Shown one piece after another: positions 5,251-33,091 of a DNA stretch of 64,000 bases. Source of the DNA: Desulfovibrio aminophilus. Its GTDB lineage: Bacteria; Desulfobacterota; Desulfovibrionia; Desulfovibrionales; Desulfovibrionaceae. The translations under genes were made by a program, and so were the position numbers. Under the pieces are notes generated by a model, which was not told where the DNA came from, searched no databases, and saw nothing but the letters and a program-made list of their open reading frames with translations. The number at the start of each line of letters is the position of its first letter. Positions within the stretch are counted from its first letter, which is position 1. The stretch is from contig NZ_JAMHGA010000018.1 of assembly GCF_023660105.1 (NCBI RefSeq), positions 124,001 through 188,000 of the forward strand, written 5' to 3'.

Positions 5251-5876
5251 CCGATATCCGCGTTTTTCCCCTGGGAATGCTCCAGACCAACTGCTACCTG
5301 CTGACCCGTGGCGAGCGGGCCCTGGCCGTGGACCCCGGGGGCGACCCCGGCCCCCTGCTGGAGTTCCTCCGGGACCGCAACCTCGTGCTGGACCGCATCC
5401 TGAACACGCACCTGCACTTCGACCACATCGCGGGCAACGCGGCCCTGGCCCGGGCCACGGGAGCCCCGATCCTGGCCTCGGAGGAGGACCGCTTCCTGCT
5501 GGAGACCGAGCTGGGCGGGGGCGGCTTCATGGGCCTGCCCGTGGTGGAGACGTTCGACTTCACCCCCCTGGTCGTGGGCGAGACCGAGTTCCTGGGTCTG
5601 CCCTGCCTGGTCCTGCCCACGCCCGGTCACACGCCCGGCAGCGTGACCCTGCATTTTCCCGGCCTGGCGGCCGCCTTCGTGGGCGACCTCATCTTCCAGC
5701 GCTCCGTGGGGCGCACCGATTTTCCCGGCGGCGACATGAAGGCCCTCCAGGAATCCATCCTGAAGCGGATCTTCAACATGCCGCCGGAAACCGCGCTGTA
5801 TCCCGGCCACGGCCCGGCCACCACCGCCGGGGACGAGAAAACCCACAACCCCTTCTTCGGGGCCATGACCTATTAG
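5247..5876 (+). CDS. MBL-fold metallo-hydrolase, glyoxalase II-like
   Basis: A 209-residue metallo-beta-lactamase-fold protein starting at GTG 5247. The metal-binding motif HLHFDH lies near residue 55; a second histidine is in TPGHTPGS (about 130), an aspartate in VGDLIF (about 148), and a last histidine in YPGHGPAT (about 190). Size and motifs match short glyoxalase II-like thioester hydrolases such as YcbL. It overlaps the nitroreductase by 4 bp and precedes a flavodoxin-type gene, forming a compact run of redox and detoxification genes. Substrate unknown. Confidence 0.88.
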   Translation: MTDIRVFPLGMLQTNCYLLTRGERALAVDPGGDPGPLLEFLRDRNLVLDRILNTHLHFDHIAGNAALARATGAPILASEEDRFLLETELGGGGFMGLPVVETFDFTPLVVGETEFLGLPCLVLPTPGHTPGSVTLHFPGLAAAFVGDLIFQRSVGRTDFPGGDMKALQESILKRIFNMPPETALYPGHGPATTAGDEKTHNPFFGAMTY

Positions 5877-5886
5877 GGAGCCCAGC

Positions 5887-6510
5887 ATGGACGAACTCGG
5901 ACCCAAGGCGGCGGTCTTCTCCTGCACGCACAAGGCCCAGGGCAACAGCAATGACGCCGCGCACCTCTTCGTGCGCGGGGTGGAGGCCGCCGGCGGCCAG
6001 GCCGACACCATCTACCTGCGCAAGATCAAGATCCTGCCCTGCACGGCCTGCGGCATCTGCGAGAAGGACCCGGAGAGCCCCTGCATCCTGGCCGAGAAGG
6101 ACTACGCGGCCGAGATGTTCGAACTGCTCATGACCGCGCCGTTCGTGTTCTTCTCCTCGCCCATCTATTTCTATCACCTGCCCTCGATCTTCAAGACCTG
6201 GATCGACCGCAGCCAGCAGGTCTGGGCCGCCAAGCACAAGGGCGACCCCAAGGTGCTGGGCCTGCCCCGGCGTCCGGCCTACGTCTGCCTCCTGGCGGGA
6301 CGCAAGGAGGGCGAAAAGCTCTTCGACGGCGCGCTGCTCACGCTGAAGTACTTCCTGGACAGCTTCAACTTGGAGCTCCGCGACCCCATGACCCTCAAGG
6401 GCGTGGACAAGGTGGGCGACCTGGAGAAGGACGAGGCCGCCACGGACGCGCTCTTCAACCTCGGCAAGACCGCCTGGGAGCGCTACGCCGCCGAGGCCAA
6501 GAAGGGCTAG
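5887..6510 (+). CDS. Flavodoxin-family NAD(P)H-dependent oxidoreductase with Cys motif
   Basis: A 207-residue flavodoxin-like protein. The N-terminal strand and the phosphate loop region (SCTHKAQGNSNDAA) are those of the NADPH-dependent FMN reductase / iron-sulfur flavoprotein superfamily. CTACGICEKDPESPC at about residues 47-61 has the cysteine spacing seen in that group, where some members hold a 4Fe-4S cluster. SSPIYFYHLPSIFKTWIDR (about 95-115) is the second flavin loop. It follows the MBL gene by 10 bp. The electron partner is unknown. Confidence 0.85.
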   Translation: MDELGPKAAVFSCTHKAQGNSNDAAHLFVRGVEAAGGQADTIYLRKIKILPCTACGICEKDPESPCILAEKDYAAEMFELLMTAPFVFFSSPIYFYHLPSIFKTWIDRSQQVWAAKHKGDPKVLGLPRRPAYVCLLAGRKEGEKLFDGALLTLKYFLDSFNLELRDPMTLKGVDKVGDLEKDEAATDALFNLGKTAWERYAAEAKKG

Positions 6511-6512
6511 CC

Positions 6513-7229
6513 GTGCTCGGGCGGCTGCGGCGGGGCCTGTCCGCGCTGGGGCTGCTGGAGTCCCGCTGCCCGGCCTGCGGTTCGCTCCAGGAGGGGCCCG
6601 CCCGGCTCTGTCCGGCCTGCGCCGCGCGCCTCGCGCCGCGCCTGGGCGGATACTGTCCCGGCTGCGGGGCCCTGGCCCAGGACCCCGGCTTGCCGCCGCT
6701 GCTCTGCCTCCAGTGCTCGGCCGAGCCCCGGCCCTGGGACCGGCTCTATTTTCACGGGCCCTACGAGGGGCTGCTGCGCGACCTGATCCTGCGCTACAAG
6801 TTCGCCCGCTCCCTGGGCCTGGGGCGGCTGCTCCAAGGCCTGGCCCTGGACGCCTTCCGGCCCGGCGGCGGGCCCCTGCCCGAGCTGCTGGTCCCGGTGC
6901 CGCTGCATCCCTGGCGGCTGCTCTGGCGCGGCTACAACCAGAGCCTGGAACTGGCCCGGCTGCTGGCGCGGCGTTCGGGCCTGCCCCTGGCGGCGCGGGC
7001 CCTGCGCCGGGTGCGGCGGACCACGCCGCAGACCCGCGTGCCCGGCCACCGGCGGCGCGAGAACATCCGCAACGCCTTTGCCGCCGATCCGGCCCTGGTG
7101 GGAGGACGGCGGGTGCTCCTGGTGGACGACGTGCTGACCACCGGCGCGACCCTGGAAGAGGGGGCCAGGACCCTGCGGCGCGCCGGGGCGGCGCGGGTGG
7201 AGGTTTTGGTCCTGGCCAAGACGCCGTGA
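6513..7229 (+). CDS. ComF-family phosphoribosyltransferase-like protein
   Basis: A 238-residue protein from GTG 6513, 2 nt after the previous stop. The N-terminus carries paired Cys motifs (CPACGSLQEGPARLCPAC, and CPGCG near residue 48), a small zinc ribbon typical of ComF/GntX. YKFARSLGLG precedes the phosphoribosyltransferase domain, which ends with the PRPP-binding loop VLLVDDVLTTGATLEEG (about residues 202-218). ComF proteins take part in DNA uptake in naturally competent bacteria; a role outside competence is unclear. It is the last gene of the run from 4,729. Confidence 0.9.
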   Translation: MLGRLRRGLSALGLLESRCPACGSLQEGPARLCPACAARLAPRLGGYCPGCGALAQDPGLPPLLCLQCSAEPRPWDRLYFHGPYEGLLRDLILRYKFARSLGLGRLLQGLALDAFRPGGGPLPELLVPVPLHPWRLLWRGYNQSLELARLLARRSGLPLAARALRRVRRTTPQTRVPGHRRRENIRNAFAADPALVGGRRVLLVDDVLTTGATLEEGARTLRRAGAARVEVLVLAKTP

Positions 7230-7294
7230 GCAACATGCTGGACTGAATGACTTTTTTCCTCGGCCGGCGGGAAGAAAAAAATGCGCGCCGGGGC

Positions 7295-7322
7295 TTGACT
7301 TTCGACCCCCACTGCGGATAAT
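7295..7322 (+). promoter_or_regulatory. Sigma70 promoter of rplU-rpmA
   Basis: TTGACT (7295-7300) and GATAAT (7317-7322) are separated by 16 nt and lie about 30 bp before the rplU start. This is one of the best promoter matches in the window, fitting a ribosomal-protein operon. Confidence 0.7.
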
Positions 7323-7354
7323 TTCCCCCTTCTCGAACGATGGAGGATTACGCA

Positions 7355-7666
7355 ATGTTCGCAATCATTGAAACCGGCGGGAAGCAGTTTCGCGTCGAGG
7401 AAGGCCTCGAGTTCAACGTGGAGCTCCTGAACGTCGAACCCGGCTCCGAGCTGGCCATCGACAAGGTGCTGCTCGTGGACAAGTCCGGCGACACCAAGAT
7501 CGGAACCCCTTACGTCGAGGGCGCCAAGGTGGCCTGCCAGGTGCTCGGCCATGCCCGCGGCGAGAAGATCATCGTCTTCCACAAGAAGAAGCGCAACGAC
7601 TTTCACAAGAAGCAGGGCCACCGTCAGGACTTCACCCGCCTGAAGGTCACGTCCATCCAGGCTTAG
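7355..7666 (+). CDS. rplU: Large ribosomal subunit protein bL21
   Basis: A 103-residue protein of the usual length, beginning [17 protein letters not shown], the diagnostic N-terminus of bL21. ATG 7355 is preferred over the in-frame ATG at 7340, because GGAGG at 7342-7346 lies at the right distance for 7355. Near the C-terminus, [16 protein letters not shown] is the conserved basic 23S rRNA-binding segment. It heads the conserved order rplU-rpmA-obg-proB and is driven by a good promoter. Confidence 0.98.
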
Positions 7667-7679
7667 CAGGAGGTCAGTC

Positions 7680-7949
7680 ATGGCTCACAAGAAAGCAGGC
7701 GGCAGCTCCAGGAACGGCCGCGACAGTCAGGGCCAGCGCCGGGGCGTGAAGCGCTACGGCGGCCAGCAGGTTCTGGCGGGCAACATCCTGGTGCGCCAGC
7801 TGGGCACCAAGATCCACCCCGGCAAGAACGTCGGCGTCGGCAAGGACTGGACCCTGTTCGCCCTCATCGACGGCGTGGTGAAGTACGAGAAGTACACCCG
7901 CAACAACAAGGTCAAGACCCGGGTTCACATCGTCCCGGCCGAGGCCTAG
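7680..7949 (+). CDS. rpmA: Large ribosomal subunit protein bL27
   Basis: An 89-residue bL27 starting [19 protein letters not shown], the conserved N-terminus that reaches towards the peptidyl-transferase centre. No N-terminal extension of the Firmicutes cleaved type is present. GGAGG lies 9 nt before the ATG. It follows rplU by 13 bp and is closed by a strong terminator before obg. Confidence 0.98.
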
Positions 7950-31393: not shown

Positions 31394-33091
31394 ATGATCC
31401 GCGACAAGCTCAAGTTCGACGTGGGCCAGACCCCGCCGCCGCACACCACGGTCTGCATCGCGCTCATGCACGTGTTCCTGGTCTTCGACGCGGTCATCTT
31501 CATCCCCAACGTGCTCGGCAAGACCACGGACATCGCGCCCCAGACCCTGGCCTTCATCACTTTCGCCATCATCATCGTCGCGGCGGCGTTCACGTTCCTG
31601 CAAAGCCGGACGCGGTTCGGCGTGGGCGCGGGATTCGTGCTCTTCACCGGCTCCTACAGCGCGTTCCTGCTCTGCTCCCTGGACGCGGTGAAGATGGGCG
31701 GGCTGCCCCTACTGGCCACCATGACCCTGCTTACGGCGCCGGTGGTCTTCCTGTACACCTTCTTCATCCGCTTCTTCCGGCACATCATCACCCCGGCGGT
31801 CGGCGGGGTGGTCATCCTGCTCATCGCCACCTCCATGGTGCCCATCGGCCTCGGGCTCTGGGCGGGCGAGACCGCCTCCGTCACCCGCCTGGGCATCGGG
31901 GCGGTCACCGTGCTCATCCTGACCCTGATGATGCTCTTCGCGCCGCCCTCCCTGCGCCTCTGGGGCCCGCTGCTGGCCATGGCCGGGGGCTACGGCGCGG
32001 CGGCCCTCACCGGGGAGCTGCATTTCGAGCACGCGGCCCACGCGGCCTGGTTCGGCCTGCCGCAACTCTCCGCCTGGCCCGGCCTGGAACTGAACCTCCA
32101 CTCCGCGCACCTGCCGCTCTTCCTCGCCTTCGGCATGGGCATGGTGGCCAGCATGATCGAGAGCACGGGCAACATCATGCTCGTGCAGCAGATCTCCATG
32201 CGGGACTTCCGGCGGGTGTCCTACGACCGGGTGCAAAGCGGCCTGTACTGCGACGGGCTGAGCAAGATCACGGCCGCGCTGCTCGGCACGGCCGTCCCCT
32301 CGCTCTACTGCGACAACCTGCCGCTCATCGAGATGACCGGCGTGGCCTCCCGTCGCGTCGGGGCGGCCGGGGCCGCGATCCTGCTCCTGCTGGCCTTCAT
32401 GCCCAAGGTCAGCGGCTTCGTCCTGGACATGCCCGGCCCGGTGATCGGCGGGTTCCTCATCGTCATCGCGGCCCTGCTGTTCCACGCGGGCTTCGGCTTG
32501 GTAGCCATGACCCGGCTGAACAACCAGCACGGCGTGATCCTCGGCCTGTCCCTGGTGGTGGGGCTGGTGGCCGGGGGCAGGTCGTTCTTTCCCGGCGTGG
32601 TGCCGTCCAGCCTGAGCCCGCTGCTCCAGAACAGCGTGGCCATGGGCGGGTTCACGGCCTTCCTGCTGAGCACCCTGGCCTATCTCGCGCCCCGGCGCGG
32701 GCTCACCGGCGTGTTCCGGGCCGACCCCGCCGAGGTCCGCGCCCTGCACGATCTGCTGGCCTCCGGCAGGCATCGCCTCCACCTGCCCCAGGAGCGCTTC
32801 AACGTCCTCTCCCTGTGCTGCGAGGAGGTCTTCCTGCACATGGTCGGGCAGGGGGGCCGGAGCGGCGACACGTTGAGCCTGCGGGTTTCCAGGACCGAGG
32901 AGGGCTGGGCCGTGGAGATGGTCTGCGGCCACATGATGGACGACATCAACAACTTCGCCCTGCCGGAATCCCTGCTGCAGGCCTCGCCGGACGAACTCGG
33001 CCAATTGGGCCTGGCCCTCTTCTCCCAGTTCGCCCGGGACGTGAAGCACATGGAGATCTCCGGTTACTCCTACATCTCCTTCCTGGTCTGA
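31394..33091 (+). CDS. NCS2 (SLC23) nucleobase transporter-like protein with C-terminal RsbW-like domain
   Basis: A 565-residue protein, CAGGAGAGG before the ATG. Residues 15-435 carry about 14 membrane segments with NCS2 features: FGVGAGFVLFTGSYSAF, GMGMVASMIESTGNIML (about 250-266; the helix-8 acidic residue region) and DMPGPVIGGFLIV. Residues about 440-565 are soluble. RFNVLSLCCEEVFLHMVGQG and ELGQLGLALFSQFARDVKHM resemble the N-box helix and the GLGL-lid and last helix of anti-sigma HATPase (RsbW/SpoIIAB) domains, but the N-box Asn and the DxGxG box are degenerate. The transporter call is solid; the C-terminal domain is by eye. Confidence 0.82.
   Translation: MIRDKLKFDVGQTPPPHTTVCIALMHVFLVFDAVIFIPNVLGKTTDIAPQTLAFITFAIIIVAAAFTFLQSRTRFGVGAGFVLFTGSYSAFLLCSLDAVKMGGLPLLATMTLLTAPVVFLYTFFIRFFRHIITPAVGGVVILLIATSMVPIGLGLWAGETASVTRLGIGAVTVLILTLMMLFAPPSLRLWGPLLAMAGGYGAAALTGELHFEHAAHAAWFGLPQLSAWPGLELNLHSAHLPLFLAFGMGMVASMIESTGNIMLVQQISMRDFRRVSYDRVQSGLYCDGLSKITAALLGTAVPSLYCDNLPLIEMTGVASRRVGAAGAAILLLLAFMPKVSGFVLDMPGPVIGGFLIVIAALLFHAGFGLVAMTRLNNQHGVILGLSLVVGLVAGGRSFFPGVVPSSLSPLLQNSVAMGGFTAFLLSTLAYLAPRRGLTGVFRADPAEVRALHDLLASGRHRLHLPQERFNVLSLCCEEVFLHMVGQGGRSGDTLSLRVSRTEEGWAVEMVCGHMMDDINNFALPESLLQASPDELGQLGLALFSQFARDVKHMEISGYSYISFLV

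Follow-up and report, generated by a model that had tools for sequence, protein, structure and literature searches.

An NCS2-type carrier with an RsbW-like pseudokinase tail in Desulfovibrio aminophilus, and its possible place in a partner switch

Why should a membrane carrier of the NCS2 type end in a domain that resembles an anti-sigma-factor kinase, with the catalytic residues apparently lost? The question is raised by a 565-residue protein of Desulfovibrio aminophilus, encoded in a 64,000-nucleotide stretch of contig NZ_JAMHGA010000018.1 (assembly GCF_023660105.1), hereafter the window. A first-pass annotation, made from the letters alone, had read residues 1-435 as an NCS2 carrier and the remainder as a degenerate RsbW-like domain, and had suggested that the carrier might report substrate flux to a partner-switching system. 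Our results bore out both domain assignments. As for function, we give an even chance to a carrier with a STAS-docking pseudokinase, which would be controlled by a partner switch whose SpoIIE-type phosphatase and intact RsbW act in trans.

The tail matched the Pfam profile HATPase_c_2 (PF13581) over profile positions 1-113 of 127, with an E value of 2.2e-4 (21.6 bits) in the whole protein and 9.6e-6 (26.1 bits) when searched alone, narrowly missing the gathering score of 27.4. The match is not due to chance, because 15 of 26 aligned proteins of the same clade (clade A, the window protein included) matched the profile at E ≤ 1, the best with 9.6e-10, and because an hhalign comparison of 23 clade-A tails with a set of three intact RsbW domains gave a probability of 95.1 and an E value of 3.3e-8 over 114 columns. 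The AlphaFold2 model of the tail, calculated from the window protein and 12 relatives, had a predicted local distance difference test score (pLDDT) of 83.8 and a predicted template modelling score of 0.81, with the lid region weakest. Its strands (E) and helices (H) followed the order E-H-H-E-E-H-H-E-E. A Foldseek search of the PDB placed RsbW, SpoIIAB and anti-sigmaF (UsfX) chains in all of the top 19 positions (E 1.5e-6 to 1.5e-3), the best being RsbW 6m36 (E 1.5e-6). VIA-align likewise gave Z scores of 12.5-14.7 for the RsbW/UsfX/SpoIIAB group and the RsbW domain of Rv1364c, led by 8ih8_C (Z 14.7, root-mean-square deviation 2.3, 111 aligned residues); a chain of the SiaB-SiaC complex (10.9), LvrC (10.1) and histidine kinases (about 7) scored lower. 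The tail is thus predicted, from the model and from the profiles, to have an RsbW-type GHKL fold; a predicted structure without such a fold, which had been named beforehand as the refuting outcome, did not occur. When the tail profile was run against PDB sequences, it gave two matches only, both NELL2 at E 0.7, which we regarded as chance. The full-length AlphaFold2 model (13 sequences) had a pLDDT of 46.6, and we drew no domain placement from it.

In GHKL kinases, the N-box Asn coordinates Mg and the D-box Asp contacts the adenine. We compared these positions across 35 aligned clade-A proteins; the set included the window copy, and near-duplicates and the copies with stops (L014/L045 and L042) were omitted. 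The N-box Asn position was occupied by His in 29 proteins, Tyr in five and Arg in one, and by Asn in none; the D-box Asp was found in 0/35. The altered boxes noted in the first pass are therefore a property of all 35 proteins and not of the window copy alone. The N-box Glu478 and the glycine-box Gly539 were each kept in 35/35. The loop that stands in place of the D-box and lid (GHxMDDINNF) was strongly conserved in close relatives only and more weakly further out, and six tail residues were invariant across 26 proteins with identities down to 28%. The ratio of nonsynonymous to synonymous substitution rates (dN/dS) between the window gene and its nearest relative was 0.119 for the tail and 0.123 for the membrane part; five further pairs gave 0.13-0.36 and 0.09-0.22, respectively, all well below 1. 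The tail is apparently a pseudokinase under purifying selection, and no kinase activity would be expected of it.

As to whether the fusion occurs elsewhere, a check proposed with the first-pass annotation, it does. Matches across both domains were present in 28 of 199 genomes of the family, the own genome included, and 27 of the 28 were free of stops. At the level of the order, 38 of 348 genomes had matches at E ≤ 1e-100, and more were found in other families of the phylum; named fusion records came from Humidesulfovibrio, Pseudodesulfovibrio and Desulfobotulus. A second group, clade B, comprised more distant NCS2 proteins with a ~130-residue tail of their own, mostly LHFEH-like at its end. 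Thirteen clade-B tails aligned by hhalign with intact RsbW (probability 96.5, E 7.5e-10, 128 columns), and the N-box Asn was seen in none of the 13 by inspection; the tailless L107 was excluded from this alignment. A FastTree phylogeny was built from 92 sequences of the membrane part, with some genes entered twice, and was rooted on the second NCS2 protein of the own genome; in it, A and B formed one group with support 1.00 (1.00 for A, 0.79 for B), and tailless members were nested within B. One old fusion with later losses of the tail would be the simplest reading of this tree, limited by the rooting and by sampling almost wholly from one phylum. A tailed clade-B fragment (G623:C178) was left unsampled, and tailless-looking or weaker NCS2 matches were sampled in part. 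A tblastn search of plasmids gave 18 records, none with at least 80% query cover, and a Niallia match extending past residue 435 proved to be a tailless open reading frame (ORF) of 440 amino acids.

Genomic support for a link to partner switching was found in the gene neighbourhoods, taken as stretches of up to about 6 kb per side, several of them shortened by contig ends. Eighteen tailed clade-B loci (14 plus L175-L178) were drawn from the family and the phylum blind to their neighbours, although the end of a SpoIIE gene beside L088, the same gene as L117, had been noticed before the longer stretches were taken. Three of the 18 (L115, L116 and L117) had SpoIIE and STAS genes near the NCS2 gene. 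In L117 the SpoIIE, STAS and NCS2-tail genes lay end to end on one strand, and in L116 the order was Bmp/PnrA-like protein, NCS2-tail, NMT1-like protein, Cache-HAMP-SpoIIE, STAS and intact RsbW. The profiles for SpoIIE, STAS and RsbW had started from own-genome seeds and had been extended on the very loci described here; a check with Pfam confirmed SpoIIE in L115, L116 and L117, STAS in L117, and RsbW in L116. With 37 SpoIIE genes in 13 genomes (one to seven each, at E ≤ 1e-8), the gene is rare enough that one would be expected within 3 kb at about 0.5% of loci; it was seen at 3/18 (p 1e-4). In two genomes, G637 and G695, the sole SpoIIE gene found was the one at the NCS2-tail locus.

The class to which G264 belongs supplied 25 further tailed loci, of which 11 were linked (L142-L146 and L154-L159), including L155 with SpoIIE alone before the contig end and L159 with STAS alone. 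In total, SpoIIE and/or STAS accompanied 14/43 tailed clade-B loci versus 0/13 tailless NCS2 loci (Fisher p 0.025); that NCS2 genes in general lie near SpoIIE was therefore not supported. The linked genes were arranged as SpoIIE-STAS-NCS2, as NCS2-SpoIIE-STAS, as SpoIIE-NCS2 with RsbW-STAS nearby, as NCS2-NMT1-SpoIIE-STAS-RsbW and as STAS-NCS2. Such differing orders between lineages argue for a functional linkage and not for a single inherited arrangement.

In clade A, an immediately adjacent STAS gene was found in L041, whose carrier is 65% identical to that of the window. This STAS gene (5581-5982; Pfam STAS E 5.3e-17) lies upstream of the carrier gene (6001-7710), 18 bp apart and on the same strand. 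In L195 a STAS-RsbW pair lies 4.3 kb from the carrier gene on the opposite strand, and in L186 and L187 an RsbW-domain protein is encoded 0.9 and 3.2 kb away, respectively, on the same strand (HATPase_c_2 E 1.4e-18 in L186). An apparent RsbW neighbour in L132 was discarded, as the match was to the carrier's own tail. The own genome encodes a single STAS-only protein (G000:C44:230177-230503) among seven PF01740 and four PF13466 matches, and this protein shares 42% identity over 125 residues with the STAS of the L041 operon. STAS proteins resembling it (L066-like, at a threshold of E ≤ 1e-18 that was our choice) were found in 28/28 family genomes with the fusion versus 61/171 without; by genus the counts were 11/11 versus 14/33 (p 9e-4). 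Genomes with other NCS2 matches had such a STAS in 43/98 cases. The own genome also encodes a SpoIIE-RsbW protein at G000:C23, with N- and D-boxes intact by eye, whose gene overlaps that of an NMT1-like binding protein (E 5.2e-41).

We propose the following model. The carrier's C-terminus, cytoplasmic by the usual NCS2 topology, would be a catalytically dead relative of RsbW. It would dock the dephosphorylated form of an RsbV-like STAS-domain protein, whose phosphorylation state would depend on a phosphatase of the SpoIIE type and on an intact RsbW kinase separate from the carrier. Binding of STAS would alter transport by the carrier or its assembly, making the carrier a client of the partner switch. 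In D. aminophilus the candidate partners are the STAS-only protein and the SpoIIE-RsbW protein named above. In classical partner switching, according to an excerpt of PMC8256260, RsbW binds and phosphorylates RsbV. We infer the binding of STAS, its dependence on phosphorylation and the role of the carrier as output, not input; that the switch controls the carrier is at least as likely as that the carrier reports flux. A broader formulation, offered more tentatively, is that an entire lineage of SLC23/NCS2 carriers takes its orders from, or provides input to, a partner switch that depends on phosphorylation, with STAS acting in trans on a carrier-borne pseudo-RsbW.

Several observations weigh against this model. 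No gene for STAS, SpoIIE or RsbW lies within about 6 kb of the window gene itself, and an immediately adjacent STAS was found in 1/49 other clade-A neighbourhoods, that of L041 (the 49 were L123-L140, L032-L045 and L184-L200, L044 being the same as L140 and some being short at contig ends). The strong operon evidence belongs to clade B, and the two clades' tails compare weakly with each other (hhalign probability 42.6, E 2.6e-4). Within clade B, HATPase_c_2 was detected at E ≤ 0.1 in just three of 14 members, with a best value of 5.5e-5. The neighbourhood counts have limits as well: 25 of the 43 clade-B loci came from a class chosen because its member G264 already showed the link, nine of the 13 tailless controls are mutual close relatives, the tailed-tailless difference has a p value of only 0.025, and the association counts ignore kinship among genomes. 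A STAS like that of the own genome also occurs in 61 of the family genomes that lack the fusion, and the own STAS resembles those of L195 (54%) and L157 (46%) about as closely as that of L041. Finally, tail dN/dS exceeded membrane-part dN/dS in five of the six pairs. The partner-switching link suggested in the first pass gains genomic support from the clade-B operons, the L041 STAS and the 28/28 co-occurrence; at the window no such neighbour was found.

The same SpoIIE/STAS linkage would also fit a transceptor, in which the carrier is the input: binding or transport of substrate would change the tail, and STAS would be released or sequestered and act on a sigma factor or another target. The non-canonical and variable substrate site (E, K, Q or M in transmembrane helix (TM) 8; D, E, S, P or A in TM10; P, S or A for the Gly of the NAT signature) could befit a receptor, and the L116 gene is flanked by genes of periplasmic binding proteins (Bmp/PnrA-like and NMT1-like). 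Carrier-kinase fusions that signal exist, as excerpts on SLC5/CbrA describe. The search for sigma-factor partners, suggested with the first-pass annotation, was successful in part: genes for sigma factors of the extracytoplasmic function (ECF) type lie about 3 kb off in six clade-A loci, all of one genus. None was detected near the SpoIIE/STAS-linked loci or the window with an ECF-derived profile, which is narrow, so that distant sigma factors would escape it, and a cruder motif scan of 14 linked loci found nothing, a scan that would have missed ECF genes too. Moreover, the SpoIIE proteins linked in L115-L117 contain their own sensor domains or come after them (Cache, HAMP, 5TM-LYT). We regard the carrier as input as the strongest of the rival readings, yet rather unlikely.

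Alternatively, the tail may need no separate partner and may stabilise or gate the carrier dimer in cis, as a regulatory or scaffold domain like the STAS domain of SLC26. It follows directly after the last membrane helix, most clade-A genes are without a partner-switch neighbour, and SLC26 transport is described in an excerpt of PMC6497670 as impaired by deletion of the C-terminal domain. Left unexplained are the SpoIIE/STAS linkage of tailed but not tailless genes, the STAS gene of L041 and the 28/28 co-occurrence, and we judge a purely cis-acting domain unlikely. The tail could also bind a nucleotide without classical Mg-ATP chemistry and adjust uptake to the adenylate or purine pool that it senses. 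Two invariant ATP-site residues, the Glu and the Gly, are kept, and feedback by nucleotides would suit a purine-type carrier. The N-box Asn and D-box Asp are nevertheless missing from all 35 proteins, no recognisable G1 motif was seen in the lid by inspection, and the STAS/SpoIIE linkage would be unaccounted for, which makes a nucleotide sensor quite improbable. That the tail is a decayed, functionless kinase domain is highly improbable: the in-frame TAG in the tail of the G029 copy, the early stop of L042, the gene pieces of G077, the tailless members nested in clade B and the mostly higher tail dN/dS would suit it, whereas tail dN/dS of 0.12-0.36 in six pairs, 27/28 stop-free full-span matches and six invariant tail residues would not.

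The carrier under partner-switch control, which we favour, resembles several known systems in part. With the NCS2/NAT/SLC23 carriers UapA and UraA, among which we also count XanQ/PbuX, the window protein shares the PF00860 membrane domain, the TM1 His and the TM10 Asn. It differs in its folded C-terminal domain and in the Pro that replaces the NAT Gly; SLC23 is described, in an excerpt of PMC6497670, as holding no carboxy-terminal domains. With the anti-sigma kinases RsbW, SpoIIAB and UsfX it has in common the predicted fold of the tail and the N-box Glu, but the tail has lost the N-box Asn and D-box Asp and is fused to a carrier. SLC26/SulP proteins, as described in the same excerpt (PMC6497670), have the same 7+7 membrane architecture and a fused regulatory C-terminal STAS domain, so that both families would carry a domain from the partner-switch repertoire on a 7+7 fold. 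In the window protein, however, the tail is of the STAS-binding type and Pfam detected no STAS domain; STAS is encoded separately in the linked operons. The SLC5/STAC transceptors CbrA and CrbS likewise join a carrier to a kinase-type signalling region, but, as excerpts present them, they are sensor kinases with a STAC domain, whereas the window protein has a single degenerate RsbW-type domain on a carrier of an unrelated family, and Pfam detected no SLC5, STAC or histidine kinase domain in it. Lastly, as in RsbU-RsbV-RsbW modules, SpoIIE, STAS and sometimes intact RsbW are encoded with tailed NCS2 genes, with the difference that a carrier-borne pseudokinase is added and that the narrow sigma profile detected no sigma factor at the linked loci.

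Carrier-kinase fusions and partner switches are each already known; for a carrier with a dead RsbW encoded beside SpoIIE and STAS, we found no account in the open-access literature of PubMed Central. The fusion lineage occurs in several families of one phylum, and its tail belongs to the protein family that binds STAS. If the model is right, the client of an RsbU/V/W module would here be a carrier rather than a sigma factor, and tailed NCS2 proteins would be the mirror image of SLC26/SulP, which bear STAS in cis. SLC23 and SLC26, sister fold families, would then carry complementary halves of a single regulatory pair on a common membrane fold, and the effect of STAS on SLC26 carriers could be approached from the opposite side. 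SpoIIE/STAS/RsbW modules, commonly treated as switches of transcription, would also have a direct output in membrane transport.

The membrane domain matched PF00860 (Xan_ur_permease) at residues 19-392 with an E value of 4.1e-37 and 128.2 bits, above the gathering score of 27, and the xanthine-permease model TIGR03173 (pbuX) at residues 23-427 with 189.1 bits, under the curated cut-off of 414.15; TIGR00801 gave 153.7 bits, also under its cut-off (291.8). All 26 members of the clade-A alignment matched PF00860 at E ≤ 1, and a Pfam scan of the window protein at E ≤ 10 returned this family and HATPase_c_2 and nothing else. The solved relatives found by profile were UapA, SLC23A1 and UraA chains, and a phmmer search of the PDB with the whole protein gave nine sequences, every one a carrier. 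The TM1 His and TM10 Asn were each conserved in 35/35 proteins. The position of Glu256 in TM8, which we take to be equivalent to Glu241 of UraA on the basis of an alignment to UapA, was Glu in 21 proteins, Lys in eight, Gln in four and Met in two. Glu241 is described as essential in an excerpt of PMC5539350. The NAT signature, given as [Q/E/P]-N-x-G-x4-T-[G/R/K] in an excerpt of PMC5972032, differs from the D-N-L-P-L-I-E-M-T-G of the window protein: the lead position varies among relatives (D/E/S/P/A), and the Gly position is Pro in 31/35 and P, S or A across relatives. By these comparisons the carrier is a member of the Pfam family yet no canonical NAT, and no nucleobase can be named as its substrate. 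We also observed swaps of binding-site charge between subclades (L022-L029 and L076-L081), from Glu to Lys, Gln or Met in TM8 and from Asp to Ser, Pro or Ala, or to Glu with a Lys nearby, in TM10. This suggests different substrates or an altered coupling. The features are collected in Table 1.

Table 1. Positions of the carrier gene and its parts in the window (position 1 is the first letter of the window).
Feature	Position	Strand	Basis
Whole gene, NCS2-type carrier with RsbW-like pseudokinase domain, 565 residues	31394..33091, stop included	+	ATG start, open ORF
NCS2/SLC23 membrane domain, residues 1-435	31394..32698	+	PF00860, TIGR03173; UapA, SLC23A1, UraA by profile
TM8 acidic residue E256	32159..32161	+	alignment of 35 proteins
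TM10 motif D307-N-L-P-L-I-E-M-T-G316, deviating from the NAT signature	32312..32341	+	alignment of 35 proteins
RsbW-like GHKL (HATPase_c_2) tail, predicted pseudokinase, residues 436-565	32699..33088	+	Pfam, hhalign, AlphaFold2, Foldseek, VIA-align
Degenerate N-box E477-E478-V-F-L-H482	32822..32839	+	alignment of 35 proteins
Degenerate D-box and lid C511-G-H-M-M-D-D-I-N-N-F521	32924..32956	+	alignments
Glycine-box remnant L538-G539-L540	33005..33013	+	alignment of 35 proteins

The clade-A copy in G029 (L014/L045; G029:C8:383281-384993) has an in-frame TAG after 534 residues of its own, within the tail, and the L042 copy has an early stop. In G077 (C39:243-614), near the contig end, two adjoining pieces matched residues 22-97 and 515-565; they may be what is left of the fusion gene after an internal deletion.

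The neighbours of the window gene encode an amino-acid permease (PF13520, E 6.8e-38) and a cupin (PF07883, E 2.4e-11). Among 15 loci compared (the window and L032-L045), no neighbour family common to at least three loci included the window. In a subset of these loci the carrier gene is preceded by the gene of a flavin adenine dinucleotide-dependent protein and, further upstream, by an ECF-type sigma gene, while a sigma-54-type activator is encoded downstream. An ECF-type sigma gene lies ~3 kb from the carrier gene in L035, L036, L039, L040, L045 and L136, and is followed by a small ORF with no Pfam match; the sigma gene of L035 matched Sigma70_r2 and r4.

NMT1/THI5-like periplasmic binding proteins, identified by Pfam, recur near SpoIIE/STAS/RsbW genes (L116, L041 and L179), hinting at a substrate-sensing input. 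Two further proteins of the own genome have RsbW-like domains. At G000:C38:162868-166299 (L054, ORF 10-1983), a membrane-type protein with 4Fe-4S domains (Fer4_5, Fer4_10) ends in HATPase_c_2 (28.0 bits, cut-off 27.4), and its N-box has, by eye, Tyr in place of Asn. Membrane proteins with pseudo-RsbW tails may be a wider theme. At G000:C34:97407-100784 (L047), an RsbW-like domain (HATPase_c_2 E 6e-13) is fused to a GNAT acetyltransferase (E 2.1e-8). The RsbW-domain proteins encoded near the carrier in L186 and L187 are similar in length to that of L047, and Pfam detected no GNAT domain in the one from L186.

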